NCBI RefSeq assembly: GCF_002221525.1
Contig: NZ_CP011028.1
Coordinates: 445,001-509,000, forward strand
Direction of reading: 5' to 3'
Source: Pseudoalteromonas espejiana DSM 9414
Lineage (GTDB): Bacteria; Pseudomonadota; Gammaproteobacteria; Enterobacterales; Alteromonadaceae
Length of the DNA stretch: 64,000 bases
Under the pieces are notes generated by a model that was not told where the DNA came from, ran no database searches, and worked only from the letters and a program-made list of their open reading frames with translations. The first letter of the stretch is position 1. The number at the start of each line of letters is the position of its first letter. The position numbers and the translations under genes are program-made. Below, in pieces: positions 5,639-57,732 of this stretch.

Positions 5639-5934
5639 TACTAACCATACACGCAAAAGCGGTATTAGCAATGAGTTAATATTTACGTATTTATACACTT
5701 GTATTTTAAATTAAATATTTATTTTCAATTGGTTGAGTATACTTTATTAACCTAATGGGGTTATATAAACAGCACCTTTTTATTGCTAGATATAACCCTT
5801 AGTGCTACATTTACGGCATAATTTTTGTTTAAAAGTAATCAAAAATAACAGAATTTCTACTTGTAGAAATAACCCGTGTGTAAATGCCACCGCAAGGTGG
5901 CATTTTTTATGCTAAAAGTATTAGCGAAAAGAGG
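5639..5934. other. gabD / HD-GYP intergenic region with inverted repeats
   Basis: No gene is evident. The stretch holds an inverted repeat GGGTTATAT (5758-5766) / ATATAACCC (5790-5798) with a 23-nt spacer, a perfect palindromic hairpin ATTTCTAC/GTAGAAAT (5853-5870), and then the terminator at 5884. It lies between convergent genes, so these are more likely RNA 3'-end structures than operators. They could also belong to a small RNA ending at the terminator. Confidence 0.5.
5884..5909 (+). terminator. Terminator between convergent gabD and HD-GYP genes
   Basis: Arms ATGCCACC (5884-5891) and GGTGGCAT (5896-5903) form an 8-bp stem with a GCAA tetraloop followed by T6. It is canonical on the plus strand. 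Read from the minus strand it is the first hairpin after the HD-GYP stop at 5935, so it may serve both directions. Confidence 0.85.
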
Positions 5935-7596
5935 TTATTTTATAGGTGAGTAGCCAGGCAATGTTGTAAGATCAACATGATCGAGTTGCTCTGGATTAGC
6001 AAAATCATTAATGTACTGCTTATAAATTTCACACTCTACAAATACAGCAAAAATATCCGCATCTAGGTGGTTATCTTCGACCATTCGGCCCAAAATTGTT
6101 AAACATTCACTTACCGGTTTTGCTTTTTTGTAAGGTCTATCTACTGCAGACAGAGCTTCAAATATATCAGCAATAGCCATTAACCTTGCTGGAATCGACA
6201 TTTGATCTTTTGTAAGCCCTTGCGGGTAGCCAGTACCGTCGAGCTTTTCGTGGTGCCCTAATGCATACTCAGAAACATTACTTAAATGTTTAGGGAAGGG
6301 GAGTGTATCTAAAATACTTTTAGTTACATCCATATGGCGTTTCATTACCTCACGCTCGCCGAGTGTTAAGGTTCCGCGTCGAATTTGTAAGTTTTCTACT
6401 TCGTCTTCACTTAATAATGGAGTTTGCTTTTCGTTTATTACAAACTGATATTGTGATGCAATTCGGTCAATATTAGCCACATCTTCATCAGATAAAAACT
6501 CGCCACCTACGTTCACTCTTTGTAAAAATGCACGGTCTAAAGAAAGCTGTTTTAGTTCTGTGTCTAGCAGGCGCTCAAACTGTAATACTTCAATTGGCCT
6601 GTTGAGCTTCATTGCCGATATTATTTGTTTTTGGTAGTCGATTTCCAAGTCGCGTTTAATTATTTCAAACTTGGTGTCAATGTATTCAATACGATCAAAA
6701 ATAGTTTCTAACTTAGTCGACTTTTCCATTATGTGATCTGGGGTCGCTATTTTACCACAGTCATGGAGCCAGCCTGCAATATCAAGTTCATGACGGTCTG
6801 AGTCACTCATTACGAATGTGGCTAATGGACCCTTATCAGTATTATGTACAGCATCTGCAAGCATTAAGGTTAAAGCTGGCACGCGTTTACAGTGCCCACC
6901 GGTATGTGGGGACTTTTCATCAATTGCCATCGCAATGGTTTCTACAAAGGTAGAGAACAACTCTTCCATTCCTTTAATCAACGTTGAGTTGGTTAAAGAT
7001 ATAGCCCCTAATGAGGCAAATGAACGAATGAGTGTGACTAGCTCATCGCTAAAGGGGATGATGTTGCCGTGTTGATCTTTAACGTTGATCAGCTGGATCA
7101 CACCAATAATATCATCGGTATGATCTTTTAATGGAATTGTTAGCATAGATTGCGTGCGGTAGCCCGTGCGGGCATCCATGTTACGTGCTGCGCTCATATC
7201 AAAAGGAAGTGCGGCATACACGTCAGGAATATTTATAACGTCACCAGAGTTAACTGCATGTGCAACAATAGCGGTTTCGTTTTCTTTGCCATCTATAAAC
7301 AGATCTATATTTGGAAAGTCTACAGGCTCGCCTAATTCCCCTCCTAAGTAGAGGTTTAACGATTTATTAATAACAGTTTCAAACTTTAGCTGTTTATTCT
7401 CAGTAACAGAGTAAATAGTCCCTGCATCAGAGTGAGAGATAGACATAACTACTTTTAGAATTTCCTCAAGTAATTTACTTGCATCCTTTTCTGTTGTTAG
7501 CCTAATGCTAATATCAATAAAGTGATGAAGGTTTGTTCTATCTTTAATGTACTCTGACATATTTTTACTACTTTGTTTTGTGAATAAAGGCGCCAT
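5935..7596 (-). CDS. GAF - HD-GYP domain protein, probable c-di-GMP phosphodiesterase
   Basis: 553 aa, cytoplasmic, with no membrane segment. A GAF sensor domain spans about residues 28-205. An HD-GYP domain follows, with HD at 278-279 (LHDCGK) and HHEKLDGTGYP at 448-458, the residues needed for metal binding and c-di-GMP hydrolysis. About 169 residues separate the two motifs, far more than in compact HD-GYP domains, and the insert is helical and charged. ATG 7596 has AGGA five bases upstream and overlaps the cyclase gene by 29 bp; ATG 7560 (MSEYIKD) is the alternative. It is the last gene of the six-gene minus-strand operon, pairing c-di-GMP turnover with cAMP synthesis. Confidence 0.88.
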   Translation of the reverse strand: MAPLFTKQSSKNMSEYIKDRTNLHHFIDISIRLTTEKDASKLLEEILKVVMSISHSDAGTIYSVTENKQLKFETVINKSLNLYLGGELGEPVDFPNIDLFIDGKENETAIVAHAVNSGDVINIPDVYAALPFDMSAARNMDARTGYRTQSMLTIPLKDHTDDIIGVIQLINVKDQHGNIIPFSDELVTLIRSFASLGAISLTNSTLIKGMEELFSTFVETIAMAIDEKSPHTGGHCKRVPALTLMLADAVHNTDKGPLATFVMSDSDRHELDIAGWLHDCGKIATPDHIMEKSTKLETIFDRIEYIDTKFEIIKRDLEIDYQKQIISAMKLNRPIEVLQFERLLDTELKQLSLDRAFLQRVNVGGEFLSDEDVANIDRIASQYQFVINEKQTPLLSEDEVENLQIRRGTLTLGEREVMKRHMDVTKSILDTLPFPKHLSNVSEYALGHHEKLDGTGYPQGLTKDQMSIPARLMAIADIFEALSAVDRPYKKAKPVSECLTILGRMVEDNHLDADIFAVFVECEIYKQYINDFANPEQLDHVDLTTLPGYSPIK

Positions 7597-9781
7597 TCCA
7601 ATCCTGTGCTAAAGTTTGCAAATCGGTTTTTTTAATTCGGTTAATAAAAATGTGGTAAATGTGATCGCTCAGTAGAGCAGTGTCACTTAACTCTTCAAAT
7701 AGTGCTAATGCTTGTTGCCAATTTTTATTATTGTAATGCTGCATAGCGGTGAACGACTTTTTAATTTCAAGTAGATGGCTTTCATTCAGCTCTGCTGTAA
7801 AGTTTATAGGTTCGTAAAGCTCAGTCGCTTTTTCTTTACCAACTACTTGTACTTTATCAATTAAACGAAAAGTAATATGCGGGCAAGCCAACATTGTATC
7901 TTCAGTAACCAGAATAGCTACCCCGTAAAATTTGGTCAAGCTTTCTACTCTTGACCCTAAGTTAACCGCATCACCAAGTACCGTATACGCTTTTCGATAT
8001 ACTGAGCCCATATCGCCAACATTCATATCGCCTGTACTTAAGCCAATACCAATATTTATTGGTGGGAGCTGTTGTTGTGCAAACGCGTTATTAATACTAT
8101 CGAGCCCTTTAACCATAGCCATAGCAGCCTCTACACCATGCTGTGCATGCTTGCTATCTTCAAGCGGCGCATTCCAAAAAGCCATAACCATATCGCCTAC
8201 GTATTTATCTATAGTGCCGTTGTGAGCAAAAATAACCTCCGTAGTAGCAGAAAGATATTGATTTAAATAGTCACTTAATTGATTAGCTGTCATCCCTTCC
8301 GATAAAGGCGTAAAGCCTCTTATATCAGCAAATAATACGGTCATATTACGTTTAACGCTTTGTTGATTTAATTGATTACCTTGACGTATTAGCTGATCAA
8401 TATGATCGGGCGGTACATACTGGTTAAACATAGATTTAATTTTACGGCTATGCTTCATTTCTGCGATTGATCCTATAAAAACAAAGTACGCCGCTAATAA
8501 TGCTGTAAGCAATAAGGGGGTAAATAAAGGTAGGCTAATTTTTTGCACTGACCACAAATAAAAATTTATGAATACAATAAATGCAGCCACCCCAAGAGAA
8601 AGCAAAACAATATAACGCGCGCTTTTACGAAAGCTCAATACTGATAATAAGCAACCCGTAAGCGTAATAATTAACAGCGTAGCGCCTAAAGACCAATTGG
8701 GCTGCGAAGGTAAAATTTCTGGATGAAGTAACCCTTCAAAAATATTGGCATGCACTTCAACACCGGGATACTGTAACCCAACAGGTGTTGCTCTCAAATC
8801 AGCTAAACCTATTGCGGAGGTACCAATAAATACAACGCTCCCCTCTAATTGCTGCTCAGCTACTTTTTCTGTTAGTACGTCGGTTGCAGAATAATATTGA
8901 AAGCTTTTTGCACGGCCTTTATACGGTATAAAAATTTGACCGTATTCATCGGTTTGGATCCAGTGCTCATGAAATTTAACCCCTTCAAAAAAAGTAAGGC
9001 TACCTTGGGTACTGGCGCGTGTTTCTATACTGTTTGCTAGCGTATATAAACGAGCGGCCTCAAGCGCAAGGGAAGGGTACAGCTTATCACCTACTTTGTT
9101 TACAAGAGCGGCTTTACGAATAAACCCATCGTTTTCACTATGTGCGTTTATAAAGCCATTACCCGTCGCACTATTTTGCAATAGAGGTATATTTACAGTG
9201 GCGCCTAAAAACGCAGTTACTTGCGTGTTACTTTGCTCACTTTGCGGCCATACAATACTTGTATCTGGAAGAGGGTTACGTTGTTTGTAAGTATCGTTGT
9301 TTAATAAAAAGCCTAATACTGTATCGTTATTACTTAATGCTTTAGCAAAGGTTGTGTCTGCATCAACTTGCTGTTTAATATCATCTAGCGCTAAGTTATA
9401 TGAGCTTAATAAACCAGGCACCCTTGATTGAATTTGATTAATCGGGTTTATTTCTGGTTCTGAAAAAAATATATCAAATGCTATTACTATCACTCCAGCG
9501 TTAGTGAGCTTAGTCACAAGTTCAGCCATTTTTGCACGACTCCACGGGAAGCGACCCTGTTCCAACATGGTTTTTTCATCTATATCGATGATAATAACGG
9601 TTTCGTCTATCTTTCTAGGAGTGTTAGGTAGAGTGAGTAATAGCCTTGAGTCGTAAATAATGCCTTCAACTCGATTAAGCAACTTGGCCAATGCACCGGT
9701 AGAAAATAGCTCTATTGCAGCTATAAGTAGAGTAATGGCTAAGCCTATAAACAAGTGCCGATAAATTTTTGGAATATACAC
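7568..9781 (-). CDS. CHASE2-domain class III adenylate cyclase
   Basis: 737 aa membrane receptor cyclase. TM1 is at about residues 10-30, a periplasmic CHASE2 sensor domain at ~30-345, three further TM helices at ~365-447, then a class III cyclase domain at ~475-655. Metal-binding Asps are D486 (FADIRGF) and D530 (KYVGDMVMAF). The purine-selecting pair is K526 and T600 (YTVLGD), the combination expected for ATP, so cAMP is the likely product. The start is GTG, 15 bp after the MBL gene. CHASE2 cyclases often sit near FecR-domain proteins, as here. The helical tail after 670 is unassigned. The signal sensed is unknown. Confidence 0.9.
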   Translation of the reverse strand: MYIPKIYRHLFIGLAITLLIAAIELFSTGALAKLLNRVEGIIYDSRLLLTLPNTPRKIDETVIIIDIDEKTMLEQGRFPWSRAKMAELVTKLTNAGVIVIAFDIFFSEPEINPINQIQSRVPGLLSSYNLALDDIKQQVDADTTFAKALSNNDTVLGFLLNNDTYKQRNPLPDTSIVWPQSEQSNTQVTAFLGATVNIPLLQNSATGNGFINAHSENDGFIRKAALVNKVGDKLYPSLALEAARLYTLANSIETRASTQGSLTFFEGVKFHEHWIQTDEYGQIFIPYKGRAKSFQYYSATDVLTEKVAEQQLEGSVVFIGTSAIGLADLRATPVGLQYPGVEVHANIFEGLLHPEILPSQPNWSLGATLLIITLTGCLLSVLSFRKSARYIVLLSLGVAAFIVFINFYLWSVQKISLPLFTPLLLTALLAAYFVFIGSIAEMKHSRKIKSMFNQYVPPDHIDQLIRQGNQLNQQSVKRNMTVLFADIRGFTPLSEGMTANQLSDYLNQYLSATTEVIFAHNGTIDKYVGDMVMAFWNAPLEDSKHAQHGVEAAMAMVKGLDSINNAFAQQQLPPINIGIGLSTGDMNVGDMGSVYRKAYTVLGDAVNLGSRVESLTKFYGVAILVTEDTMLACPHITFRLIDKVQVVGKEKATELYEPINFTAELNESHLLEIKKSFTAMQHYNNKNWQQALALFEELSDTALLSDHIYHIFINRIKKTDLQTLAQDWNGAFIHKTK

Positions 9782-9795
9782 GCGAGAAATAACCG

Positions 9796-10644
9796 TTAAT
9801 CCTTTATTGGTGCAAAATCAAAAGTTCGGCCTTCTCTGGCGCACTCAATATTTATGTGTTTCCCATAGCTCGCTTGTAAATGCGCTTCTATTGCTAATAG
9901 CTCGTTATCGGTTCTTGCTGGATCGTGGCTTATTATGGCTAAATTTTTAACCTGTGCTTGAACTGCTAATTCGGCTACCTGTTTAAATGTGCTGTGTCCC
10001 CAGCCGTGCTTTAAAGGTAAATCATCATTTGTAAATTGAGCATCGTGAATTAGTAAGTCAGCGTCTTTTATAAACGCTGCCCATTGTGTAATGGTTGTTT
10101 TAACGGAGCCTGGTGGATCTAATTCGTTATCAGTTACATAAGCTATTTTTTTGCCGTCTGCATTTACACAATAAGCGGTTCCCCCTCCTGGGTGATTAAG
10201 TGGTGCAGTGAACACGCTAAAATTATTAATAGTAAAGGTGTTTTGTAAAGCAAGCTGGGTGTTTAGGGTAATACTTGCGGGCAAGTTTTGGTAATTAACA
10301 GGAAAAAAAGACCCTGACATTTGCGTTAAAATACCATTTTTACTCTGCTCGTCATCTACGTCACCAACTACAATCGTTATGTCACGGCCAGCTTGGTAAA
10401 TCGGCTTAAAAAAAGGAAAGCCTTGTATATGATCCCAGTGGTTATGCGTTAATAATATTGCAATGGGCGAAGATTGATTTAATAGTGTTTCACCAAGTTG
10501 GGCGATGCCTGTACCTGAGTCTAATATAAGGCTATCGCCATTAGATTGCTCCACATAAACGCAAGAGGTGTTGCCACCAAATAGGTGCGTATGCTTACCC
10601 GGTGAAGGCATAGAGCCTCTTACGCCATAAAATTCAACTTTCAT
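9796..10644 (-). CDS. MBL-fold metallo-hydrolase (RNase Z/PDE-like)
   Basis: 282 aa, soluble, no signal peptide. The N-terminus MKVEFYGVRGSMP followed by GGNTSC is typical of RNase Z/PhnP-like metallo-beta-lactamase-fold proteins. The first metal motif is LLTHNHWDHIQG near residue 88, with later ligands in HPGGGTAY, DNELD, HDAQF and ISHDPARTD. It starts 3 bp after the giant lipoprotein gene ends, so it is probably translationally coupled. Substrate is not predictable from motifs. Class II cAMP phosphodiesterases and tRNA/cyclic phosphodiesterases share this fold, so a role in removing the neighbouring cyclase's product is possible but unproven. Confidence 0.82.
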   Translation of the reverse strand: MKVEFYGVRGSMPSPGKHTHLFGGNTSCVYVEQSNGDSLILDSGTGIAQLGETLLNQSSPIAILLTHNHWDHIQGFPFFKPIYQAGRDITIVVGDVDDEQSKNGILTQMSGSFFPVNYQNLPASITLNTQLALQNTFTINNFSVFTAPLNHPGGGTAYCVNADGKKIAYVTDNELDPPGSVKTTITQWAAFIKDADLLIHDAQFTNDDLPLKHGWGHSTFKQVAELAVQAQVKNLAIISHDPARTDNELLAIEAHLQASYGKHINIECAREGRTFDFAPIKD

Positions 10645-10647
10645 AAT

Positions 10648-13600
10648 TTAAGGTTTGATTCCGTCGGGGTAAAAGTTAAATTTAGATACGCTGACGTTAT
10701 TTGAAGCATTATCAAAACACGTACTGCTTAGTACAATTTGGGTATCAGTTTGTAATAGCATTGATGTAAATGTGTGCGTGCTATCGCATTGCTCTGCTAG
10801 GTAGTAACCAAGAGCGCTTGTTCCAAATAAAGTGTCAATTGTGCCGTCAGCTAATATACGTGCAATCATGCCCTTTGATTCACTCATGCCAGATAGAACT
10901 ATATTGCCTGAAGTATCTAACGATGCATCAATCACTTTTGTATCGGAGCTTGGTGATAACTGATATTGCCCCACACCACTTGTGGCAAAGCTTGTATCTA
11001 AGCTGCCATCAGCAGCTAACTTTATAATAACTGCTTGATTAGGCGTTGTGCCTTCGTTTGCAATTAAGTAAAGATTTGCTGCGCTATCGGCCAATACTTT
11101 TGAAGCGCTATCAGTTATATCTGCAGTAATACGGGTATCTGTATAAGTAAATATTTCATTAGCATCATCGTCGACTTTTAGCATTATTAATTGTGAATCA
11201 CTGCCAGATACTTGCTTACCCGCTATAAATATATCTTTATTTATATCTATATAGAGTGTTTCAAAAAACTCATTGATGTTGCCGTAATAAGCCCCGCTGG
11301 TGCCAAAGCTATTCTCTAATTTGCCATCACTTTTTAACATAGTCGCAAATGAGCGGGTAACACTTAATGCATCAGTAAATGAGCCCACAGCAACAATATA
11401 GCCACCGCTATCTATAGCGACATCAGTAAAGTTTATATCGCTATTTAAAATATCTACCGTAGTGTAAATACCCTCAGTAGCAAAGCTGTCATCTAAGTAA
11501 CCATCTTGGTCTACTTTTGCTATAAAGCCTTCTTCAGTTAAACCATTTATTTGCGTTCCAGCAATGATGATACTGCCATCAGCAAGCTCTTTTAATGTAA
11601 CAGTTTTAAACGCTACATTTATGTTGAGCGCTTTAATTCCATCAATGCTAAAGCTGGTATCAAGAACTCCAGCACTCGTATAGCGAGTTAAAACCAGCTT
11701 ATTAGTTGTATTAAATTGTGCAACCGAGGCGCTTAAATATTTATTAGCTTGAGTGCCGTTTTGTAGCTGTAGTAAGCTCATTGACTGATCGTCTGAGCTA
11801 ATGGCTAAATTATTTATGCTTGTATAGCCATCAGTTGAAAAGTTGGTAAACAGGCTTGCATCATTAGTTACTGAGGTTATAAAAGGCTCATTAGTCGAGT
11901 CGTTAAATTTACCAGAGAGCCATACGCTATCATTTTCATCAATAGTCATAGCATTAGCTGATTGATTGCTGATGAAGTTTGAAATTATATTAACGCCCGA
12001 AACACCGTAACTCGTATCAAGCTCTCCGTTACTTACAGATACGCGGGCTGTAAATAGTTGCTCATTTTGGGTGGTATCAGAGGCTTCAATACCCGTAGTG
12101 CCTGAAAGTATTAGCTGATTACTCATCGGCGCATATTTTACGCCAGTAATTTGTGCACCGCCGTTACCAGTGCCAGAGTTTCCATCAATATTATAAATTG
12201 CGATACCTTCATTGCCAATATTCTCATCAATATCGCCATTGCTATCAATAGAGATCATCACAGCTTCTTTTTCACCTGATGAGCGAGTAATGTAACCTCC
12301 CAAATAAGCAGTAAAATTAACCGCGTCTATGCCAGCAATAGCAAGTAGCTCATCGTCACCTTCTTCATCAGATAAGTCTATTATAAGCGCATCGCCAGAG
12401 TTAAAGCTTCCGCTATTGTTGCCATCAGGAATAAGGTATCTGACAGTTGCATCTAAATCGTTTTCCTCACCTATGGTGCTTCCCACTACCAGTAACTCAG
12501 AGTTACCAAAGTTTTTAATTGCATGCGACTCGTCATCATCGTTATTTCCGCTTACATCAACAATACCTGGGCTACCCGCTTCAAAAGCGAGAGTTGACAC
12601 ATCGTATTTAAGAAATAAACTGTCTTTATCTAGGCCGTTTACCGAATAGCCTACGCCTTGTACTTTATTATCTGTGAATTCAAGGTCGTTTATTGCAGAT
12701 TCACTCGCAAGCGTTGTACATTTAGTACCTGAGTTGCCGTCACCTGAATTTGTACTAACAATACCAGTCACACTCATTTTTAATAAACACGCTTCGGTTT
12801 CTGTTCCATCAAAGCTTGAGTAGCCAATAAATAGCTCACCATTACCAGAGGTGATAGCAGTGCCTTTTTCATCTTCACCTAGGTCAATAGTTTTAAAACC
12901 AGTGCCATTAAATGCAGTGTTTACATCGCCGGTATTTGTGTAAGAGGCAACAATAATATCTGCGTCTGAGTTGTTATTGTAACCAACAAAATAAAGGTTG
13001 GTATTAAGCTCAATACTGTCGTTAAATTCACCGTCAGAAAAAACACGCGAAAGGTCTATTTGCCCACTTAGTGGCCGCCCAAACGTATTATCTTCCACGG
13101 GAATTAGTGGGTCTTCTTCGTCAATAATATTTACAGTAGCTGTTATAGTCGTGGTTTCATTTGGAGTGCCATCATCAGTAATATTAATATTTACAGTATG
13201 TTGTGTAGCCGTTTCATAATTGAATGGGCTAGTACCATTTGCACTTAATTCCCCGCTAGTGCTATTAATATTAAATAGCGCTGTTTCGCCGCCACTTAAG
13301 CTAAAGTTGAGAGTGTTACTTTCAATATCAGAGGCTGTAATAGAACCAACTACTTCACCATCTGTTGCATTTTCTCCAATAGAGAACGTTTGGTTGAGCG
13401 CTTCTGGGGCATCGTTAATTGGTGTAATAGTAATGGTTAAGTTACCTTGCACATCGTCGGTACTATCACTTAGCGTATAAGTAAGCGTTGCAACACCCTC
13501 GCTGTTTAAGGCCGGCGTGTATTTAACTTGGTTACTTTCAACACTTGCACTACCAATATCAGCTGTCACAGCGGTTATTGAAAGAGTATCGGTTACATCT

Positions 13601-16600
13601 ACATCGGTGTCGTTACTAATAACATCAATGGTTGTTTCGGGTGCGTCTTCATTAATAGTGGCAGTATCCGATATGGCAACTGGGGCATCGTTAACGGGAG
13701 TTACGGTAATAGTTAGCACGCCGCCGGCTGTATCTGTACCATCACTTAAGGTGTAATTAACGACAGCTTGGCCATTAAAGTCGGCTTCAGGTGTGTAAAC
13801 AATGTTACTACCAGAAACAGTTACTGAGCCGGTAATTGCATTTACTGAACTGATCGAAAGTGTATCGTTTTCTATATCCGTATCGTTACTCAGAACATTA
13901 ATACTGGTTGCTGCTGCATCTTCTAAAATAGAGGCGGTGTCGGGGTTTGCTACAGGGGCATCGTTTACTGGGGTAACCGTTATTGTTAACTGGCCAGTTG
14001 CCGTATCAGTGCCATCACTTAATGTGTAGTTTACAGTAGCTTGACCACTAAAGTTGGCAGCTGGCGTATAAATTACATTATTACCTGAGCTTGAAACCGA
14101 GCCAGTGCTTGCACTTGCAGCACTAATAGAGAGGGTGTTGCCCTCCACATCGGTGTCATTACTAAGCACATCAATACTTGTTGCAGCAGCATCTTCTAAA
14201 ATAGTAGCTGAATCTGCATTAGCCACAGGAGCATCGTTTACTGGTGATACTGTTATTGTTACTACGCCAGGTGCTGTATCTGTGCCATCAGATAAGGTGT
14301 AATTTACAATAGCCTGACCATTAAAGTCTTCACTCGGTGTGTAAACAACGTTGCTTCCAGACACCGTAACTGTTCCATTACCAGTAGTGGCACCACTGAT
14401 TGACAGTGTATCGTTTTCTATATCTGTGTCGTTAGCGAGCACGTTTATATTAGTTGCTGCTGCATCTTCCAAAATCGTTGCTGCGTCAGCGTTAGCTACC
14501 GGGGCATCGTTCACTGGGGTGACCGTTATTGTTAACTGGCCAGCTGCTGTATCGGTGCCATCACTTAGGGTGTAACTTACAGATGCTTGGCCATTAAAAT
14601 TAGCCGCTGGTGTATAAATTACATCAGTACCTGAGCTTGTAACGCTTCCCGATGTTGCACTGACAGCGCTGATAGAAAGCGTATCGTTTTCAACATCAGT
14701 ATCGTTAGCGAGTACGTTAATATTTGTTGCTGCGGCATCTTCTAAAATAGTGGCTGTATCAGCGTTAGCGATAGGTGCATCGTTAACTGACGTAATTGTT
14801 ATATTGAGCGTACCAGATGAAGCCGCATTCCCATCACTAATTGTGTAAGTAACAGTTGCAGTGCCATTGTAATCAGCTTGAGGAGTATACTGCACTTGAT
14901 TACCAACAATATCAGCGCTGCCTATGTCAGCTGAAACGGTTGTAATAGTGAGTGTGTCGTTTTCAATATCGGTATCGTTAGCAATAACATTTACAGTTGT
15001 GGCGTTATCTTCATTAATGGTGACTGTATCGGTATTTGCTATTGGTGTGTCGTTTACCGCTGTTACAGTAATACTAAGAATGCCTGTAGCTGTATCGGTG
15101 CCATCACTTACTGTGTAATTAATTGTTACTTGGCCGTTAAAGTTAGCCTCTGGCGTGTAAGCAAGGTTACTACCGGCTACAGAAACATTACCTGTAGTGG
15201 TAGTCGCGGCACTAATTGAAAGTGAGTCACTTTCAGGGTCTGTATCGTTGGCCAATACATTAATATTAGTGGTTACGGCATCCTCGAGGATGGTTGCTGA
15301 ATCAGGGTTAGCAACAGGGGCATCGTTAACGGGTGTAACTGTTACGGTTAATACACCGGCAGCCGTATCAGTTCCATCATTTAATGTGTAATTTACGATT
15401 GCTTGCCCATTAAAATTAGCCGCTGGTGTATAAATTAAATTATTGCCCGACACAGATACTGAACCCGAGCTTGTGTTTGCCTCACTAATAGAGAGCGTAT
15501 CGTTTTCTACATCTGTGTCGTTAGTAAGCACATTAATATTTGTCGCTGCGGCGTCTTCTAAAATAGTCGCTGCATCAGGGTTTGCAATGGGTGCATCGTT
15601 TACAGGCGTTACCGTTACAGTGAGTACGCCAGCTACGGTATCGGTGCCATCACTTACTGTGTAATTAATAATTGCTTGGCCGTTAAAGTTAGCCTCTGGC
15701 GTGTAAGCAAGGTTACTACCGGCTACAGAAACACTACCTGTAGTGGTAGTCGCGGCACTAATTGAAAGCGAGTCACTTTCAGGGTCTGTATCGTTGGCCA
15801 ATACATTAATATTAGTGGTTACGGCATCCTCGAGGATGGTTGCTGAGTCAGGGTTAGCAACAGGGGCATCGTTAACGGGTGTAATTGTGATGGTTAATAC
15901 ACCGGCAGCCGTATCAATGCCATCACTTAATGTGTAACTTACGGTTGCTTGCCCATTAAAATTAGCCGCTGGTGTATAAATTAAATTATTGCCCGACACA
16001 GATACTGAACCCGAACTTGTGTTTGCCTCACTAATAGAAAGCACATCGTTTTCTACATCTGTGTCGTTAGTAAGCACATTAATATTTGTCGCTGCGGCGT
16101 CTTCTAAAATAGTTGCTGTATCAGGGTTTGCAATGGGCGCATCGTTTACAGGCGTTACCGTTACAGTGAGTGCGCCAGCTGCTGTATCGGTGCCATCACT
16201 TATTGTGTAATTAATAATTGCTTGGCCGTTAAAGTTAGCCTCTGGTGTGTAAGCAAGGTTACTACCAGCCACAGAAACACTACCTGTAGTGGTGCTTGCT
16301 GTACTAATAGAGAGAGTGTTGCCATCCACATCGGTGTCGTTGATGAGTACATTAATATTTGTCGCAGCAGCGTCTTCTAAAATAGTCGCTGCATCTGGGT
16401 TAGCCACGGGAGTATCGTTAACGGGGGTAATCGTTACTGTAAGCGTACCTGTAGTACTTTGTGTACCGTCACTAATAGTGTAAGTAACGCTGGCAGTACC
16501 ATTATCGTTTGCAGCAGGTGTATATTGAATTTGGTTATTAACAATAGACACACTACCAACATCACTTACTGCTGAACTAATCGTTAAGTTATCACCATCT

Positions 16601-19263
16601 ATATCAGTATCATTACTTAGTACATTTATTAAACTTGCTTGTGCATCCTCAGCAATTGTAATGCTATCGGAATTTGCCACCGGTGCGTCATTAGTAGGGG
16701 ATATAGTTATTTGTAAATTGGCGCTGGCACTCGCCTCATTTCCATCTGATATTGTATAAGAGACAATGGCAACCCCATTACTGTTAGGGTTAGGGCTATA
16801 CTGAACTTTATTTTCAACAATCGATGCCGAACCAAATTCAGTCATAACATTTGTTATTGTTAAATTGTCACCGTCAATGTCGGTGTCATTCACAAGTACA
16901 TCAACCAAAATAGGCGCTGCATCTTCTACCATAGACGCACTATCAGCAGAGGCTACAGGTGTGTCATTTACGGGCAATATAGTAAGTGAAACGGTGCCAC
17001 GACTTGTTTGTGGCGCATCATTCGCAATGCCATCAGAAATTGTATAGGTTAGGGTCACTTCACCAAAGTAATTGGGCTCAGGTGTATACTCAATATTATT
17101 ATTTACAATTTGGGCTGTACCCACTGTGTTGCTAATACTTGTAAGTGTAATTGTATCGCCATTGGCATCAGTATCATTATCTAATACGTTAAGCGTTGCA
17201 GTAGGGCTGTCCTCAGGCAGTGTATATTGATCGTCATTTGCTTTTGCTGGTGAATTAGAACCCGTTTTGCTTAATACAACTTGCGCTGTTGCTGTTAAGC
17301 CTTGTTCATTTGAAACTAAGTAGGTGAAGCTATCTACATCTAATGCATCTGAATTGGGTTGATAGGTAAATGAGCCATCACTGCTTAATAGCAATGTGCC
17401 ACTTTGAACATCAACAACAGGCGTTTGATCAACCGTTAAGTCACCAGGTTCTATGTTTACATCATTTTTAAGTAAACCATTATCAGCAGAAACACTTAAA
17501 GTTTGATTATACTGAAATTGATACTCATCATTTTGAGCGACCGGGTTATCTGGTGTGCTATTGATTGTAAGTGTAACAGTTGCGGTTGCGGTTGCGCCAA
17601 AAGCATCAATTACTTGATATTGAAATTCATCAACGCCGTAATAGTTTGCATCTGGAATATACGAAAAACTACCATCAGTATCTAAAAGTAGCTGCCCATG
17701 AGTGGGGGAAATTACATAGCTATCATCAATGATAAAAGTATCATTATTAGGGTCTGTATCGTTTGCAAGTAATCCTTGGCTTGCATTAACAATAAGAGTT
17801 GTGTCTTCATCAACACTGTAGTTGTCGTTCGCAGTTGTTGGCGGACTATTTTGATCTAGCGCGTTAATAGTAACGCTTGCAGTAGCTTGTGCGCCTAAAG
17901 CATCAATAATACGGTACTCAAACGTATCAGTGCCTTGCATATTGGCACTTCCTACATACTCAAAGCTGCCATTACCATTAAGGGTGAGCGTGCCTTTAGT
18001 CGGTGAGCTAACTGCTGTTGTATCTACGGTAAGTAAATCTAGGTCTATGTCGCTGTCATTCGCTAATAACCCAGGTGCTGTTACTACTAAAGAACCGTCG
18101 GCGGTTATGTTATAGGTATTATCAAGTGCTATTGGCGCATCATTAACGGCATTAATAGTTATTTCTACAATGCCTGTGTCGGTCATGCCTAACTCATTGA
18201 TTACCTGATAGCTAAACGCGTCATTGCCATTAAAGTTGGTGCGGGGTGTATAAGTAAAGTCGCCATTTTCGCTTATTGTTATATTACCGTGTTGTGGGCT
18301 AACGGCTACAGTGCTGTTTACATTCAAAGTACCTTGATATTCATCGCTATCATTAATTAACACGTTGCCTTGTAATGCTTGGTCTTCATTAACGTCAAAT
18401 AAATCATTTGCTGCTTTTGGAGCAAAATTTAGCTCACCTCCAACAGGTGCCACATTAATTACTTCTGCAAAACCACTTTCGCCACTACCATCTATGCCTG
18501 TAATTAAAATTTGGTAACTTTTTTCAGTAAGCGTGTCGCTAATACTAAAGCTTGTATCCGCTATGCTTAAAAATTGCTGACCATTTTCGAGGGCATTTAC
18601 ATTATTGGTTGTTACGCCTGCTTCGGTAGCTAAATAAACGTTGTAACGGTTTAAGTTTTCGTTAGCTTGCCATGATAAGTTAATAGTTTGCCCATCTCGC
18701 TGCGCAGTAGTTCCTTCAATTTGGTACGGCTGCCAACTTACGGTTATCGCATCTGCAAGTACTTGGTTATTAAGATTATCAGTAACCCATATTTCTAGGC
18801 GTAGATCGCCAGGATCAACGCCGTAAAAATAAGGGCTAAGCCCTATAACCGATAGCTCAAATTCGCTACCACATGCTTGCGCGCATATCGGCAAGCTTTT
18901 ATTTACACTAGGCAGTACTAAATTCACTGCACTTATGCCATCAGGGTCTGAAACATTGAGTAAAAACGTTATATTGCCCTGAATAACTTCGTTTGACTGT
19001 GAAAGGGTAAATGATGCTAAAGAGTTCGCAAGTGTTGCCCCTACAACGCCCCTATTAGATGCTACAGCACCTGAAACTTGGGTTTTTGTTGTAACTGTTT
19101 GGCCTACCACACCGGTAAGATTAATTGTTTCAGTAGATGGAGTAGGTGAGACCTGCTCTACGGGAGCTTGTGCTGTATCTTGTTGTGAAGTTTCTTCAGA
19201 GCCTCCACAAGCGCTGAGCAAAAAAACCATTGAACCGAGCAAAAAAAGGTTTTTTGCTGTCAT
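10648..19263 (-). CDS. Giant cadherin-like repeat lipoprotein (2871 aa)
   Basis: The N-terminus has a lipoprotein signal with lipobox LLSAC and Gly next to the Cys, predicting outer-membrane sorting. A ~250-residue N-terminal region is followed by 18 tandem ~90-aa Ig/cadherin-like repeats (~280-1950). Their signature is VNDAPVA...ED....NVL.NDTD, with Asp-rich NDTD loops that suggest Ca2+ binding. A cadherin-like repeat (INDAPEALNQTFSIGEN) follows. The last ~800 residues carry delta-60/beta-propeller-like units (LDTSF...G). GGAG sits 8 bp before ATG 19263. It is probably a surface adhesin or scaffold; the FecR and Slam-like genes lie immediately upstream. Repeats 8-12 form near-identical pairs (see findings). 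Ligand unknown. Confidence 0.88.
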   Translation of the reverse strand: MTAKNLFLLGSMVFLLSACGGSEETSQQDTAQAPVEQVSPTPSTETINLTGVVGQTVTTKTQVSGAVASNRGVVGATLANSLASFTLSQSNEVIQGNITFLLNVSDPDGISAVNLVLPSVNKSLPICAQACGSEFELSVIGLSPYFYGVDPGDLRLEIWVTDNLNNQVLADAITVSWQPYQIEGTTAQRDGQTINLSWQANENLNRYNVYLATEAGVTTNNVNALENGQQFLSIADTSFSISDTLTEKSYQILITGIDGSGESGFAEVINVAPVGGELNFAPKAANDLFDVNEDQALQGNVLINDSDEYQGTLNVNSTVAVSPQHGNITISENGDFTYTPRTNFNGNDAFSYQVINELGMTDTGIVEITINAVNDAPIALDNTYNITADGSLVVTAPGLLANDSDIDLDLLTVDTTAVSSPTKGTLTLNGNGSFEYVGSANMQGTDTFEYRIIDALGAQATASVTINALDQNSPPTTANDNYSVDEDTTLIVNASQGLLANDTDPNNDTFIIDDSYVISPTHGQLLLDTDGSFSYIPDANYYGVDEFQYQVIDAFGATATATVTLTINSTPDNPVAQNDEYQFQYNQTLSVSADNGLLKNDVNIEPGDLTVDQTPVVDVQSGTLLLSSDGSFTYQPNSDALDVDSFTYLVSNEQGLTATAQVVLSKTGSNSPAKANDDQYTLPEDSPTATLNVLDNDTDANGDTITLTSISNTVGTAQIVNNNIEYTPEPNYFGEVTLTYTISDGIANDAPQTSRGTVSLTILPVNDTPVASADSASMVEDAAPILVDVLVNDTDIDGDNLTITNVMTEFGSASIVENKVQYSPNPNSNGVAIVSYTISDGNEASASANLQITISPTNDAPVANSDSITIAEDAQASLINVLSNDTDIDGDNLTISSAVSDVGSVSIVNNQIQYTPAANDNGTASVTYTISDGTQSTTGTLTVTITPVNDTPVANPDAATILEDAAATNINVLINDTDVDGNTLSISTASTTTGSVSVAGSNLAYTPEANFNGQAIINYTISDGTDTAAGALTVTVTPVNDAPIANPDTATILEDAAATNINVLTNDTDVENDVLSISEANTSSGSVSVSGNNLIYTPAANFNGQATVSYTLSDGIDTAAGVLTITITPVNDAPVANPDSATILEDAVTTNINVLANDTDPESDSLSISAATTTTGSVSVAGSNLAYTPEANFNGQAIINYTVSDGTDTVAGVLTVTVTPVNDAPIANPDAATILEDAAATNINVLTNDTDVENDTLSISEANTSSGSVSVSGNNLIYTPAANFNGQAIVNYTLNDGTDTAAGVLTVTVTPVNDAPVANPDSATILEDAVTTNINVLANDTDPESDSLSISAATTTTGNVSVAGSNLAYTPEANFNGQVTINYTVSDGTDTATGILSITVTAVNDTPIANTDTVTINEDNATTVNVIANDTDIENDTLTITTVSADIGSADIVGNQVQYTPQADYNGTATVTYTISDGNAASSGTLNITITSVNDAPIANADTATILEDAAATNINVLANDTDVENDTLSISAVSATSGSVTSSGTDVIYTPAANFNGQASVSYTLSDGTDTAAGQLTITVTPVNDAPVANADAATILEDAAATNINVLANDTDIENDTLSISGATTGNGTVTVSGSNVVYTPSEDFNGQAIVNYTLSDGTDTAPGVVTITVSPVNDAPVANADSATILEDAAATSIDVLSNDTDVEGNTLSISAASASTGSVSSSGNNVIYTPAANFSGQATVNYTLSDGTDTATGQLTITVTPVNDAPVANPDTASILEDAAATSINVLSNDTDIENDTLSISSVNAITGSVTVSGSNIVYTPEADFNGQAVVNYTLSDGTDTAGGVLTITVTPVNDAPVAISDTATINEDAPETTIDVISNDTDVDVTDTLSITAVTADIGSASVESNQVKYTPALNSEGVATLTYTLSDSTDDVQGNLTITITPINDAPEALNQTFSIGENATDGEVVGSITASDIESNTLNFSLSGGETALFNINSTSGELSANGTSPFNYETATQHTVNINITDDGTPNETTTITATVNIIDEEDPLIPVEDNTFGRPLSGQIDLSRVFSDGEFNDSIELNTNLYFVGYNNNSDADIIVASYTNTGDVNTAFNGTGFKTIDLGEDEKGTAITSGNGELFIGYSSFDGTETEACLLKMSVTGIVSTNSGDGNSGTKCTTLASESAINDLEFTDNKVQGVGYSVNGLDKDSLFLKYDVSTLAFEAGSPGIVDVSGNNDDDESHAIKNFGNSELLVVGSTIGEENDLDATVRYLIPDGNNSGSFNSGDALIIDLSDEEGDDELLAIAGIDAVNFTAYLGGYITRSSGEKEAVMISIDSNGDIDENIGNEGIAIYNIDGNSGTGNGGAQITGVKYAPMSNQLILSGTTGIEASDTTQNEQLFTARVSVSNGELDTSYGVSGVNIISNFISNQSANAMTIDENDSVWLSGKFNDSTNEPFITSVTNDASLFTNFSTDGYTSINNLAISSDDQSMSLLQLQNGTQANKYLSASVAQFNTTNKLVLTRYTSAGVLDTSFSIDGIKALNINVAFKTVTLKELADGSIIIAGTQINGLTEEGFIAKVDQDGYLDDSFATEGIYTTVDILNSDINFTDVAIDSGGYIVAVGSFTDALSVTRSFATMLKSDGKLENSFGTSGAYYGNINEFFETLYIDINKDIFIAGKQVSGSDSQLIMLKVDDDANEIFTYTDTRITADITDSASKVLADSAANLYLIANEGTTPNQAVIIKLAADGSLDTSFATSGVGQYQLSPSSDTKVIDASLDTSGNIVLSGMSESKGMIARILADGTIDTLFGTSALGYYLAEQCDSTHTFTSMLLQTDTQIVLSSTCFDNASNNVSVSKFNFYPDGIKP
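14900..16760 (-). repeat. Higher-order 546-bp repeats inside the giant gene
   Basis: The same segment recurs at 15131, 15677 and 16223, a period of exactly 546 bp, or two ~91-codon modules. Copies at 15131 and 15677 differ at only about twenty positions by eye, including synonymous sites. This points to recent in-frame duplication or gene conversion rather than old divergence held by selection. The boundaries given are approximate. Confidence 0.8.
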
Positions 19264-19300
19264 TCTACATACTCCAATAAAAGCTTAATATTCAAAATTC

Positions 19301-20431
19301 TTAAGGTTCTAATCTAAAGTCACCACCGGCATTTATAGCAGGGTTACTTATTTCTTCTAGGCTAAAATCACCGGTAATAGTGTCTATGTCATTTAAAAAA
19401 ACGGCGTCAATTTCGCCGGTCGCTTTATTGTTATTATGAGAGGCAAATGTGATAGCTAAATCTAACTTAGTTAAATCAATAAGGCCGCTGTATGCTGCGT
19501 ACCAGTTTCCACCTGCATCGTTAAAACTAATTTCACCATCAGGTACAGTGCCATTATCAAAATCTACCGACATTGACATAGTAAAATCACTCACCTCACC
19601 CAAGCTTGATGACACATCAAAGCTTGTCGCTTGGTAATTAAATACACCTTGACGCTCTGCTATTTGGTCAATTAATGATGCATTACTGACTGCCTGAAAT
19701 TGTTGCTCTGCGTACACATCTGCTATTGATGTATCGGCATCGGTAGTATTTTCTGAAGTATTATTTTGCGCCAATGACTGCTGCTCAGGTTGTTGTTCTG
19801 CGTTATTGTCATCGTCTATAGGTGCAAAAGTTTGAGTAAATACTGCTGGTGCTTGCGTAGTTTTAATTACATCGCCCAAAGCGGTAACTTGCGCAAAAGA
19901 AAAAGGCTCATTGCTACCAAGTGATACAACGCTTTGATCGTCAAGTGTAAGGTCAATTGCGCCATCCCAAACCGCAACATACATATCACCTTCTACAAGT
20001 TGTAGTTCAAAGTGAGTGCCTCGAATACCAATTGAGCCAACAGGGGTTTTTACATTATAAGAGCCACCGTTCTTTTTAATAACACCCGAGATAGAGCGCA
20101 AGCCACCTTTTATTAGTTCTATAGAAGCAGAACCTTGCTGAGTTGCATTATCAAACTCATAGTTCGCAATATTTAGCTCCGAGTTTTCTTTTAGTGCTAT
20201 TAGGCCACCGTCAGACATAGAAAACTGTGCCTTACTTTTTTCACCTGTGGTTATTCTATCAACACCAAACACGGTATCCCTTCGTTTTAGAGTTCTTTGT
20301 TGAGCCGAACTTGCGTCAGTGGCCAGTACATCTCCTCGCGCCAAAATAGTTTTACCTGCAGCCGTATTACTTGCCTGAGAGGTAAAGCTCACACTAAGTA
20401 AGGTGGTTAATGCCAAAATTAAATGTTTCAT
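19301..20431 (-). CDS. FecR-domain periplasmic protein
   Basis: 376 aa with a Sec signal peptide (cleavage near ASNTAAG). The FecR domain spans about residues 25-165: ARGDVLATD, RDTVFGVDRITTGEKSKAQF, SDGGLIALKENSEL, a Gly-rich GGLRSISGVIKKN and GSIGIRGTHFEL. The rest is an acidic Q/N-rich linker and a C-terminal beta-rich part with no family I recognise. Unlike classical FecR it lacks an obvious inner-membrane helix after the signal. AAGG lies upstream of the ATG. It sits between the beta-barrel and giant lipoprotein genes and upstream of the CHASE2 cyclase. FecR proteins relay outer-membrane signals, so it may link the barrel or lipoprotein to CHASE2; this is inference. Confidence 0.87.
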   Translation of the reverse strand: MKHLILALTTLLSVSFTSQASNTAAGKTILARGDVLATDASSAQQRTLKRRDTVFGVDRITTGEKSKAQFSMSDGGLIALKENSELNIANYEFDNATQQGSASIELIKGGLRSISGVIKKNGGSYNVKTPVGSIGIRGTHFELQLVEGDMYVAVWDGAIDLTLDDQSVVSLGSNEPFSFAQVTALGDVIKTTQAPAVFTQTFAPIDDDNNAEQQPEQQSLAQNNTSENTTDADTSIADVYAEQQFQAVSNASLIDQIAERQGVFNYQATSFDVSSSLGEVSDFTMSMSVDFDNGTVPDGEISFNDAGGNWYAAYSGLIDLTKLDLAITFASHNNNKATGEIDAVFLNDIDTITGDFSLEEISNPAINAGGDFRLEP

Positions 20432-20443
20432 AAATACCTTAAA

Positions 20444-21769
20444 TTAGAATGAGTAACTTGCGCTTAAATTGGTGTCAAAGCGGTCGTATTCGAACAAAGA
20501 AATGTCACTTGTTTTATCTTGATAGTTTAGCGCTAACTGTAGCGCCAAGCTTTTATTGACCAAGTAGCGTACTGAGCTAGAAAGAATTAAGAGGTTGTCG
20601 CTGCGGGTCTGTAAAAACAGTGGGTGGTCGTCTTGATATTCAATCCATTGATACCCAGTTTGTGCGGATAGTTGCCACTGCTGGGCTAGTAGCGCACTCA
20701 CTTGATAATAAACACCGCTAATATTTCGGGCGTTAAAGTCACCCTCATTAATGTTAGCGCTTTCATTTTTAAAGTTAGCACTTACACTCTGGTACCACCT
20801 TTTAGATAAGTAGCTTGCACCTATATTAAGCGTGTAAAATGAGTTGTCTAACTTCTCATCAAATGTATTGTTCATAGCACCTAATGTGAGTGAGCCAAAT
20901 ACACTCAATTGTTTGTCTAACTCGTAGCTTGCACCAGCTGTTAGTGATGTTTCTGTTCTGTATAGCTCACCATCTAACAATAAAGGCGTAATACCAGCTT
21001 GCACATACCACAGGGTTTGTTCTAATTGTTGTTGGTAGCGCCCTGTTATATTTGTATTTATACGGTCATATTCAGATAGTTCATTAAATTTATACCAGTC
21101 AGTAGATATACCCAATGAAAGTGCACTGCGTTGATCAAGTGGGTGAGAGTAACGGCCTTTATAGTTTAGTTTTATATAGTTATCGTCGCTGCTTTTACTT
21201 GCTGGAGATAACAAAAACTCGCCTAAATTAGGGATTAATATAGTATCTTCTGATGTACCAGCATTAACATTGCCATCCATACCGTAAGCAATTTCAACAT
21301 TTTGATTATATGAACGCCCAGCTAAGCGTTGTTTAAGCTGTGAGGTTTCCAATAATTTGCGTGCAGCCACTTTTACTCTTTCAGGAGAAGCACTGGTATT
21401 AATTAGTACGGATGCTTGTGAATTAGCCGCAGGTAAGTTGTTGGCTGCAATATAAGATTTTACTAAATATAAGCGAGCCTCATACCACTGCGGCTTAGCT
21501 TCTATTACACGCTCAAAAGCAAATACAGCTGGTGCTGAAAGCCCAGAGTTAAGTGCCGAAACACCTAATAGGTAATCAAAGTCAGGCTCGCCTAGGTATT
21601 TATAATTTTTTTGGCTACGTTTATAAGCCTCATCGTAGTGTTTTTGCGAAATTAAATATTGCAGTTCACCAAGTAGCTTTACATACGAGATATTATTTTG
21701 GGCTTTTACATTTAAGCTAATAAAAGAAAAGTAACCAAGTAAAAAAATAAGAAAAGCTTGTTTGATCAT
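20444..21769 (-). CDS. TPR - outer-membrane beta-barrel protein (Slam-like)
   Basis: 441 aa from ATG 21769, chosen because MIKQAFLIFLLGYFSFI...VKA is a signal peptide; an ATG at 21844 would add 25 residues ahead of it. Residues ~30-140 are TPR-like helices (YDEAYKRSQKNYKYLGEPDFDYLL, AVFAFERVIEAKPQWYEAR). From ~165 alternating strands form a predicted ~14-strand barrel, starting IAYGMDGNVNAG and ending SASYSF with terminal Phe. Signal, TPR and DUF560-like barrel is the layout of Slam surface-lipoprotein exporters. It is first in the minus-strand operon, 12 bp before fecR. The Slam assignment is by architecture, not alignment. Confidence 0.75.
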   Translation of the reverse strand: MIKQAFLIFLLGYFSFISLNVKAQNNISYVKLLGELQYLISQKHYDEAYKRSQKNYKYLGEPDFDYLLGVSALNSGLSAPAVFAFERVIEAKPQWYEARLYLVKSYIAANNLPAANSQASVLINTSASPERVKVAARKLLETSQLKQRLAGRSYNQNVEIAYGMDGNVNAGTSEDTILIPNLGEFLLSPASKSSDDNYIKLNYKGRYSHPLDQRSALSLGISTDWYKFNELSEYDRINTNITGRYQQQLEQTLWYVQAGITPLLLDGELYRTETSLTAGASYELDKQLSVFGSLTLGAMNNTFDEKLDNSFYTLNIGASYLSKRWYQSVSANFKNESANINEGDFNARNISGVYYQVSALLAQQWQLSAQTGYQWIEYQDDHPLFLQTRSDNLLILSSSVRYLVNKSLALQLALNYQDKTSDISLFEYDRFDTNLSASYSF

Positions 21770-22007
21770 GCTTGTTGGAATGTCCCGTGAAATAAGTGGA
21801 GGCCTGCTAATACTAAATACTATTAAACAATAATAAGGTAGCACTTTCTGTTTATATGTAAAGCATATTGACGTATTATTATACGGTTGTTAACAATGAT
21901 TTGACATGGATAAATATAGATTAAGAAATATAAGAAGCATTAAAATATAATGAATTAATAAAGGAATTTATAAAGGGATTAACAAAGAATAACTAGAAGG
22001 GAAAAAA
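21770..22007. other. Upstream region of the six-gene operon
   Basis: 238 bp of AT-rich sequence between the Slam-like gene start and tRNA-His, both on the minus strand. The operon promoter should be here, but I see no clear sigma-70 pair. A read-through contribution from the tRNA transcript is also possible because no strong terminator separates them. Confidence 0.4.
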
Positions 22008-22084
22008 TGGGGCGATTGACGGGGCTTGAACCCGCGACAACCGGAATCACAATCCGGGGCTCTACCAACTGAGCTACAACCGCC
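22008..22084 (-). tRNA. tRNA-His (GTG anticodon)
   Basis: 77 nt on the minus strand, with encoded CCA (22008-22010), C73, a 7-bp acceptor GCGGTTG/CAATCGC (one G-T pair), and the extra G-1 diagnostic of tRNA-His. The D arm AGCTCAGTTGGTAGAGC, the anticodon loop TTGTGAT and the T arm with GGTTCAAGCC are all present. Confidence 0.97.
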
Positions 22085-27961: not shown

Positions 27962-28078
27962 GCTAAATACATTAGACTTAGCTGAACGGATGGAATAGGT
28001 TATTTTAAAGGCTACCGTAGAGCCTTTAAGCTAGCTTTCGTGAATTTATTAGCATATTAGATTAATTGGATATTTTAA

Positions 28079-29014: not shown

Positions 29015-29038
29015 CAGCGTAAAAGGTTAAATCTATAA

Positions 29039-54794: not shown

Positions 54795-54824
54795 ATAGTA
54801 AAAGTAGGGTACATTGGCTCTTAT

Positions 54825-57690: not shown

Positions 57691-57732
57691 TTAGCCGTTA
57701 TTATTAGTATATGACGTATAGGACTATAAACG

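Follow-up and report, generated by a model that had tools for sequence, protein, structure and literature searches.

A conserved six-gene operon of Pseudoalteromonas espejiana with a proposed role in signalling from the outer membrane to cyclic nucleotides

The six-gene operon

The DNA analysed here is a stretch of 64,000 nucleotides from Pseudoalteromonas espejiana DSM 9414 (Alteromonadaceae; contig NZ_CP011028.1, positions 445,001 to 509,000), referred to below as the window. An earlier reading of this DNA (the original prediction) had picked out six minus-strand genes as an operon that joins a giant surface protein, its likely exporter and two second-messenger enzymes. Six minus-strand open reading frames (ORFs) are confirmed in the same places, at 5935-21769, and the ORF coordinates and Pfam matches bear out the genes, their positions, their spacing and all but one of their domains, the exception being the tetratricopeptide repeat (TPR) discussed below. 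The intergenic gaps computed from the ORF coordinates are 12, 37, 3 and 14 bp, followed by a 29-bp overlap. The first gene is counted from the ATG at 21769, not from the GTG at 21844 of the mechanical ORF; the gaps are the same either way. In order of transcription, the genes are as follows.

20444..21769, minus strand: outer-membrane protein of a family related to Slam and the type XI secretion system (T11SS), with a periplasmic TPR-like region and a C-terminal beta barrel; 441 aa (family-level profiles)
19301..20431, minus strand: secreted FecR-domain protein with a signal peptide; 376 aa (Pfam, hydrophobicity)
10648..19263, minus strand: giant lipoprotein; 2871 aa (Pfam, lipobox, repeat analysis)
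9796..10644, minus strand: metallo-beta-lactamase-fold (MBL) hydrolase, a probable cyclic AMP (cAMP) phosphodiesterase; 282 aa (Pfam, gene position)
7568..9781, minus strand: CHASE2 receptor adenylate cyclase, class III; 737 aa (Pfam, catalytic residues)
5935..7596, minus strand: GAF-HD-GYP protein, a probable cAMP-regulated phosphodiesterase of cyclic di-GMP (c-di-GMP); 553 aa (Pfam, motifs)

Conservation as a unit

Searching proteins with the CHASE2 cyclase as query returned 79 loci, 38 of which contain all six gene types. These 38 belong to Pseudoalteromonas, Colwellia, Pseudocolwellia, Rheinheimera, Algicola, Psychrosphaera and a gammaproteobacterial metagenome-assembled genome; in some of them the giant, or another of the genes, is spread over two or more frames, and some of the remaining loci end at contig edges. 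Because this set had been picked by CHASE2, a survey of the family independent of CHASE2 was run on 147 genomes sampled evenly across it, with 60 stretches fetched. Relatives of the FecR protein occur in 44 of the 147 genomes, spanning 25 of 52 genera, and CHASE2 proteins in 52; both are present in 44 (Fisher 1e-29, a value that overstates independence since the genomes are related). Seven of 61 FecR rows were removed as extra stretches of one gene or as a neighbouring frame in one fragmented assembly. For 41 of the 54 FecR places counted, a CHASE2 gene is found no more than 30 kb away, in every case on the same strand.

The outer-membrane protein, FecR and CHASE2 genes stand together in 36 of the 44 FecR-bearing genomes (in L111 the outer-membrane protein is split over two frames; loci, genomes and genera are given by their L, G and g numbers). 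These 36 loci hold the outer-membrane protein in every case, the giant (any ORF of 700 aa or more that follows FecR) in 32, the MBL gene in 26 and the HD-GYP gene in 22 on the same strand and in five on the opposite strand. All six genes are present in 20, and gene order is identical across the 36 loci.

Several cases weigh against treating the six genes as one unit. The giant is absent from four of the 36 loci, all of one genus (g58), and the MBL gene from ten. In two genomes (G046 and G079) the parts are rearranged or separated and FecR begins a long protein, and in genus g44 (G056, G097 and G153) the operon consists of the outer-membrane protein, FecR and the giant, with CHASE2 outside it. 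Among the other FecR genomes that do not fit so well, G118 probably has its locus broken by a contig boundary at the giant, and G049 and G093 are fragmented assemblies. On balance, the co-occurrence of FecR with CHASE2 and the constant order in 36 loci support one conserved functional unit, as proposed originally from the window. The original prediction was to fail if the signalling genes rarely accompanied the surface genes, which is not the case in the 147 genomes.

The outer-membrane protein family

The window's outer-membrane protein matches only the generic barrel families BBP2_2 and Phage_OMP in Pfam. The barrel of the predicted TPR/beta-barrel protein thus stands, whereas the TPR part is uncalled by Pfam in this protein, though common in its relatives, most of which match TPR models (TPR_19 in 33 of 42 members). 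A PDB profile search gave 64 matches, and the 60 listed are TPR or designed repeat proteins (some of them fusions) together with one barrel protein (3dwo).

The Slam barrel model PF04575 (SlipAM) does not match the window's own protein. Ten members of the family were scanned singly: three from Burkholderiales (L051, L052 and L067) match PF04575 over nearly its full length at 54-59 bits (cut-off 22), one (L069) reaches 20 bits, below the cut-off, and six others are without a match. The Synergistales protein of L071 matches part of the Slam barrel model at 46 bits, and the protein of the Solemya symbiont (L061) does not match it. When 42 members were scanned together, 13 matched PF04575 at E <=0.01 and nine matched the Slam TPR model. 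All five Slams taken from two other genomes are recovered by a profile built from Alteromonadaceae members only (E 4e-22 to 2e-8), which matches no further ORF of 250 aa or longer; two of the alignments run from the TPR region on and three from the TPR end through the barrel. In the reverse direction, a Slam profile matches 48 of 92 operon outer-membrane proteins and nothing else. A profile built from the window's protein and five close relatives does not find the Slams, and the link to Slam therefore passes through the wider family. By these profiles in both directions, the family is related to Slam and T11SS proteins at family level, which bears out the likely exporter of the original prediction to the extent that the family is kin to exporters of surface lipoproteins. 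A plasmid search with the L052 protein found no rhizobial relative; it returned one Acinetobacter plasmid protein annotated as a surface lipoprotein assembly modifier.

The giant lipoprotein and the FecR protein

The giant carries a lipobox (LSAC, Cys19), an N-terminal base of about 290 aa, 18 Big_9/cadherin-like (tandem-95) repeats and a distal delta-60 (DUF5122) region. The repeats are regular, with 13 of 14 motif spacings at 90-92 residues, and the identity between certain pairs of them is 80-91%. Among the 31 other survey giants, 25 match the window base (those without a match are L100, L110, L127 and the giants of G069, G095 and G126), and a simple pattern finds a lipobox in 22. Stalk length is variable, with between 0 and 31 repeats found by the window repeat profile, and unbroken giants range from 857 to 7995 aa, the longest being that of G069 (L123, L124; 31 detected repeats). 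DUF5122 is found by Pfam in the giants of the window, of P. luteoviolacea (L024) and of Rheinheimera (L033), and not in those of L101 or L108. Oceanobacter and Thalassolituus carry lipoproteins of 591 and 882 aa in the giant's place. We infer that the giant may act as a feeler whose base talks to the machinery, which the conserved base and the variable length and tip would fit. Two observations count against the giant as a T11SS client. T11SS cargo normally has a C-terminal eight-stranded barrel, according to the available text of PMC12282271, and the giant ends in the delta-60 region instead; in addition, the cargo barrel PF01298 (TbpBBD) is absent from the giants scanned, although a barrel of other sequence is possible.

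The FecR protein matches PF04773 at 65 bits and has an N-terminal signal peptide (by eye) and no later hydrophobic segment. A Pfam scan of the six genes found no sigma factor or TonB receptor among them, the neighbouring genes and the survey loci lying outside that scan. In all these respects the protein is unlike a FecI/FecR sigma regulator. The FecR domain of the original prediction is confirmed, and its description as an outer-membrane signal relay would not apply in the FecI/FecR sense. FecR-domain proteins also accompany CHASE2 proteins with other outputs (histidine kinase and GGDEF-EAL, described below), which suggests that they are a general partner or ligand of CHASE2. A PDB profile search with the FecR protein returned no matches.

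Two further ideas about this protein were set aside. Its C-terminus was considered as a T11SS cargo barrel; PF01298 is absent from the 25 FecR proteins scanned, and hhalign to TbpBBD cargo gave 2-4% probability where reversed controls reached up to 5%. The long proteins that begin with FecR in G046 and G079 (1639 aa, and 2216 aa with an open end) contain no cadherin-like repeat by the window repeat profile, and a fusion with the giant is therefore not claimed.

The cyclase and the MBL hydrolase

The cyclase, the only CHASE2 match in the genome, scores 190 bits for CHASE2 and 71 bits for the class III cyclase domain in Pfam. Hydrophobic segments lie at residues 10-28, 364-382, 391-409 and 419-437, with a weaker one at 88-106, which fit a protein of the inner membrane, and the CHASE2 sensor domain is taken to face the periplasm. 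Residues K526, T600, D486, D530, N607 and R611 are present and invariant in 23 of 23 aligned cyclases; we take K526 and T600 to be adenylate-type residues, the two aspartates to bind metal, and the asparagine and arginine to be transition-state residues. By its domains and residues, the protein is predicted to be an adenylate cyclase.

The MBL protein has the metallo-beta-lactamase domain in Pfam and the motif HNHWDH at residue 67, and it cannot be named from sequence alone. Names among the best 120 of 7315 homologues are 'MBL fold metallo-hydrolase', 'phosphoribosyl 1,2-cyclic phosphodiesterase' and, once, 'Ribonuclease BN'. The original prediction assigned it no function; its position in several genomes suggests that it is probably a cAMP phosphodiesterase and part of a cAMP cycle, and the Campylobacterota clusters discussed below likewise include a cAMP phosphodiesterase. 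In Synergistales an MBL domain and GAF-HD-GYP form one fused protein, about 670 aa long (identified by Pfam in L071 and by its sequence in L070), which in L071 lies between the outer-membrane protein and the cyclase; in Ensifer the MBL gene overlaps the end of a CHASE2 cyclase gene; and in G079 (L145) the MBL gene between GAF-HD-GYP and the cyclase matches the class-II cAMP phosphodiesterase family PF02112 (47.6 bits, cut-off 23.7), with yeast PDE1 as its nearest PDB chain. The scores pull the other way. The window's protein does not match PF02112 in Pfam and reaches 73 bits with RNase Z against 35 bits with the cyclic-nucleotide phosphodiesterase model NF041851 (cut-off 400). For the L145 protein, likewise, the PF12706 (73 bits) and RNase Z (62 bits) scores exceed that of PF02112, and the outer-membrane protein and FecR of its genome lie far from it. 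That the protein is an RNA phosphodiesterase or another phosphodiesterase with no cAMP role, carried along by chance, agrees with these scores and with the ten survey loci that lack the gene; we nevertheless consider this unlikely, given the fusion to GAF-HD-GYP, the neighbouring cyclase in Ensifer and the PF02112-matching protein that stands in its place in one genome.

The GAF-HD-GYP protein and a swappable effector slot

The last protein combines GAF and HD_5 (Pfam), with HD at residue 278 and HHEKLDGTGYP at residue 448. It thus has the HD-GYP motifs of a c-di-GMP phosphodiesterase, and c-di-GMP is its probable predicted substrate. The enzymatic outputs named originally, a cyclase and an HD-GYP enzyme, are in this way matched by adenylate-type residues and by a catalytic motif. 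The Synergistales fusion has HHQKWNGSGYA in place of HHExxDGxGYP. PDB matches of the protein include PmGH and a cyclic GMP-AMP (cGAMP) phosphodiesterase, and those of the GAF part are PmGH and cyclic-nucleotide GAFs, namely PDE5, PDE2A, PDE10A and the adenylate cyclase GAF 1ykd.

Orthologues of the GAF-HD-GYP protein (E <=1e-90) occur in 44 of the 147 genomes, one in each, and 43 of these genomes have CHASE2. The gene lies within 5 kb of a CHASE2 gene in 34 of the 44, on the same strand in 23 and on the opposite strand in 11. Six of these 11 have a CHASE2 gene without any FecR match close to it in the survey, and in the two of the six that were examined (L147 and L148) the neighbour is another, shorter CHASE2 cyclase.

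Elsewhere the place after the cyclase is filled differently. An MscS-type channel with a cNMP_binding domain occupies it in L109, L110 and the Burkholderiales loci L052 and L067, and by like sequence in L140. In Thiothrix (L050) a CRP-type regulator lies ahead of the cyclase, and in the Solemya symbiont (L061) a cyclic-nucleotide-binding protein adjoins it. Among the 36 survey loci, seven showed no HD-GYP gene and no MscS-type channel gene next to the cyclase. Since the slots that can be named tend to hold readers of cAMP, the GAF domain is a likely cAMP site in the window's protein. The gene after the cyclase is thus probably a swappable, cAMP-reading effector, and cAMP would have the HD-GYP protein as its target instead of working alongside it. 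The original prediction, with cAMP raised and c-di-GMP lowered, would be corrected on this point. The cyclic-nucleotide GAF motif NKFDE has the form NKXnFX3DE. It is only partly present here (N171 and F182 are invariant among 17 aligned proteins; the K and the DE spacing are not kept), and one genome (G121) has the HD-GYP orthologue with no CHASE2; both facts weigh against this assignment.

Wider distribution and comparison with known systems

The combination of outer-membrane protein, FecR and CHASE2 cyclase extends to loci of Alcaligenaceae and Burkholderiaceae and to plasmids of Shinella and Paracoccus, and in Synergistales (L071) it is found with FecR first. No giant was seen in the operon in the Burkholderiales, alphaproteobacterial and Synergistales stretches, or in one Alteromonadaceae genus. 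In L146 (G066) a FecR-like protein whose N-terminus resembles LysM by eye lies beside a CHASE2-GGDEF-EAL protein, a pair that is, on its predicted domains, the c-di-GMP version of the FecR-CHASE2 pair.

There are other FecR-CHASE2 pairs as well. A second type (L136-L139) has FecR proteins of 242-257 aa with no outer-membrane protein seen alongside; those of L136 and L139 begin with an apparent twin-arginine signal, and the CHASE2 protein of L136 is a cyclase. On plasmids of Ensifer and Shinella (L149, L150), FecR and a CHASE2 cyclase are next to NHLP bacteriocin-export genes and a cyclic-nucleotide-binding protein. One pSymB record has a FecR gene beside a CHASE2 cyclase-like sequence that is unannotated and read in two frames.

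Among the closest described arrangements is that of Campylobacterota (PMC9239204). The available text of that paper reports that most CHASE2 cyclases there cluster with a cAMP phosphodiesterase, FecR and a TPR protein, and proposes one pathway, with no functional test in the same text; the term HD-GYP occurs in it six times. Compared by description, the two arrangements share the CHASE2 cyclase, FecR and possibly the same kind of hydrolase, and TPRs are found in most relatives of the window's outer-membrane protein. In the operon described here, the TPR protein is a Slam-related barrel, and the giant and the GAF-HD-GYP effector are added.

In Sinorhizobium, as far as the accessible accounts go, the outer-membrane barrel NsrA is needed for the activation of CHASE2 cyclases by a protein signal. 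Like the window operon, the cascade of NsrA, CyaD1/CyaD2/CyaK and Clr sets an outer-membrane barrel upstream of CHASE2 adenylate cyclases and has a FecR gene near cyaD1; its effector, in contrast, is the regulator Clr, and the likeness of the two barrels is one of description only. The same accounts state that the S. meliloti FecR gene smc02177, near cyaD1, is not required for perceiving the shoot signal, and this dispensability counts against a general sensory role of FecR.

The Slam/T11SS proteins (PF04575; accessible text of PMC8406197 and PMC12282271) share with the window's family the TPR and barrel architecture as well as the profile similarity in both directions. They differ in that the neighbours of the window's family are FecR and a cyclase, and that no canonical cargo barrel domain was found in the proteins scanned. 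By word search, the two T11SS papers do not mention FecR, cyclase, Pseudoalteromonas or Alteromonad-. The BiofilmReg operon of Burkholderiales, which has a biofilm phenotype, also pairs a FecR-domain protein with a CHASE2 sensor, but there CHASE2 drives a histidine kinase, FecR carries LysM, and the operon as described in the available text includes no outer-membrane protein or cyclase (PMC5192318). FecA-FecR-FecI works alike, in that an outer-membrane protein and a FecR domain relay a surface signal; it differs in its sigma factor and TonB receptor, of which the six genes have neither, and in its output, here taken as cAMP. The original prediction knew of no named system with this set. This holds only in part: the cluster of FecR, TPR protein, CHASE2 cyclase and phosphodiesterase (PMC9239204) and the NsrA barrel are in print. 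In their accessible text, papers that join CHASE2 with FecR add no Slam-type protein or giant lipoprotein, a provisional result as most subscription papers lay outside the search. The core is a known but unnamed kind of system; what is new is the giant at the surface, the kinship with Slam and the interchangeable effectors.

Proposed mechanism and alternatives

We think it rather probable that the six genes form an operon for signalling from the outer membrane to cAMP, with cAMP closing on c-di-GMP through the HD-GYP enzyme. The outer-membrane protein would place the giant on the cell surface or hold its base there, and the occupancy or secretion state of this complex would be relayed to the CHASE2 domain by the FecR protein. 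The cyclase would then make cAMP, which the MBL protein would degrade; cAMP would bind the GAF domain of the HD-GYP enzyme, and this enzyme would lower c-di-GMP. In some relatives an MscS-type channel with a cyclic-nucleotide domain would take over the last step. The physical stimulus might be contact, tension or a ligand, and contact or tension is a guess. More tentatively, and with rather less confidence than in the operon as a whole, the outer-membrane protein of the Slam/T11SS superfamily may double as the receptor, with the displayed lipoprotein as an interchangeable feeler that is read through FecR and CHASE2 into cAMP driving swappable effectors, either c-di-GMP hydrolysis or a gated channel. 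If so, this would be cell-surface signalling in which a secretion pore and a second messenger replace the TonB receptor and the sigma factor.

The outer-membrane protein might instead be purely a receptor and not an exporter, like NsrA of Sinorhizobium, with the giant reaching the surface by another route and only presenting or filtering ligands. The role of the NsrA barrel in cyclase activation, the stretches that show the protein together with FecR and CHASE2 but no giant in the operon, and the lack of the usual cargo barrel in the giants scanned all favour such a view. We regard it as doubtful, in that the Slam profiles match in both directions and pick out no other ORF, 32 of 36 loci have a large protein after FecR, commonly with a lipobox, and smaller lipoproteins take the giant's place in Oceanobacter and Thalassolituus. 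A FecI/FecR/FecA-like route through a sigma factor could appeal to the PF04773 domain; it is very improbable in view of the signal peptide, the absence of a later hydrophobic segment and the lack of sigma-factor and TonB-receptor genes among the six.

HD-GYP proteins and cAMP commonly tune adhesion, and large cadherin-like and CshA/BapA-type repeats are typical of adhesins. The locus might accordingly be an adhesin operon whose second-messenger genes are co-regulated but independent, tuning adhesin expression or release globally and receiving no signal from it. This we judge to be improbable: the core of outer-membrane protein, FecR and cyclase persists where no adhesin is seen alongside, and FecR pairs with CHASE2 proteins of histidine kinase (available text of PMC5192318) or GGDEF-EAL (L146) output, suggesting a receptor pair.

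How Gram-negative cells read contacts of their surface proteins is a long-standing question, and what CHASE2 domains recognize was not known according to the accessible part of PMC5192318. On the proposed signalling scheme, the operon points to likely partners of CHASE2, namely the FecR protein, a Slam-related outer-membrane protein and a lipoprotein upstream, and a phosphodiesterase and a cAMP-read effector downstream. It also suggests a direct wire from cAMP to c-di-GMP and a sensory role for T11SS-type proteins. Natural variants each lack one part (no giant, no MBL protein, or a channel in place of HD-GYP), and culturable marine bacteria offer a way to test the chain as a whole.

Flanking signals and other features of the window

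Two signals flank the operon.

5882..5905, plus strand: 10-pair hairpin about 30 bp past the last gene, scored as a terminator for converging plus-strand transcription
21878..21907, minus strand: promoter-like site (10/12) upstream of the first gene, by consensus match only

Read on the operon strand, the tail of the hairpin holds only three T, so that its use as a shared terminator for the operon as well is possible but weak. Promoter-like sites in the region of 21878..21907 are fewer than in its shuffled versions. No CRP site was found between the operon and the next gene, and the window total is 16 against 24 expected. A terminator-like hairpin with seven T lies at 19402-19418 (minus strand) inside the 3' coding end of FecR, just ahead of the giant; it could set stoichiometry or be due to chance.

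A tRNA-His gene (22011-22083, minus strand) lies just upstream of the operon and is co-directional with it; the gene is found upstream in L002 and L003 too. The idea of a tRNA-borne island was dropped, as the 3' end of this gene has no second copy in the window at up to three mismatches. It is weakened further by the presence of tRNA-His in only two of 25 relatives scanned, both Pseudoalteromonas, although several of these stretches start too near the operon to tell. Elsewhere in the window, the GC content falls to about 0.31-0.33 at 28001-34000 and 50001-60000, and the GC skew is 0.38 at 52-54 kb.

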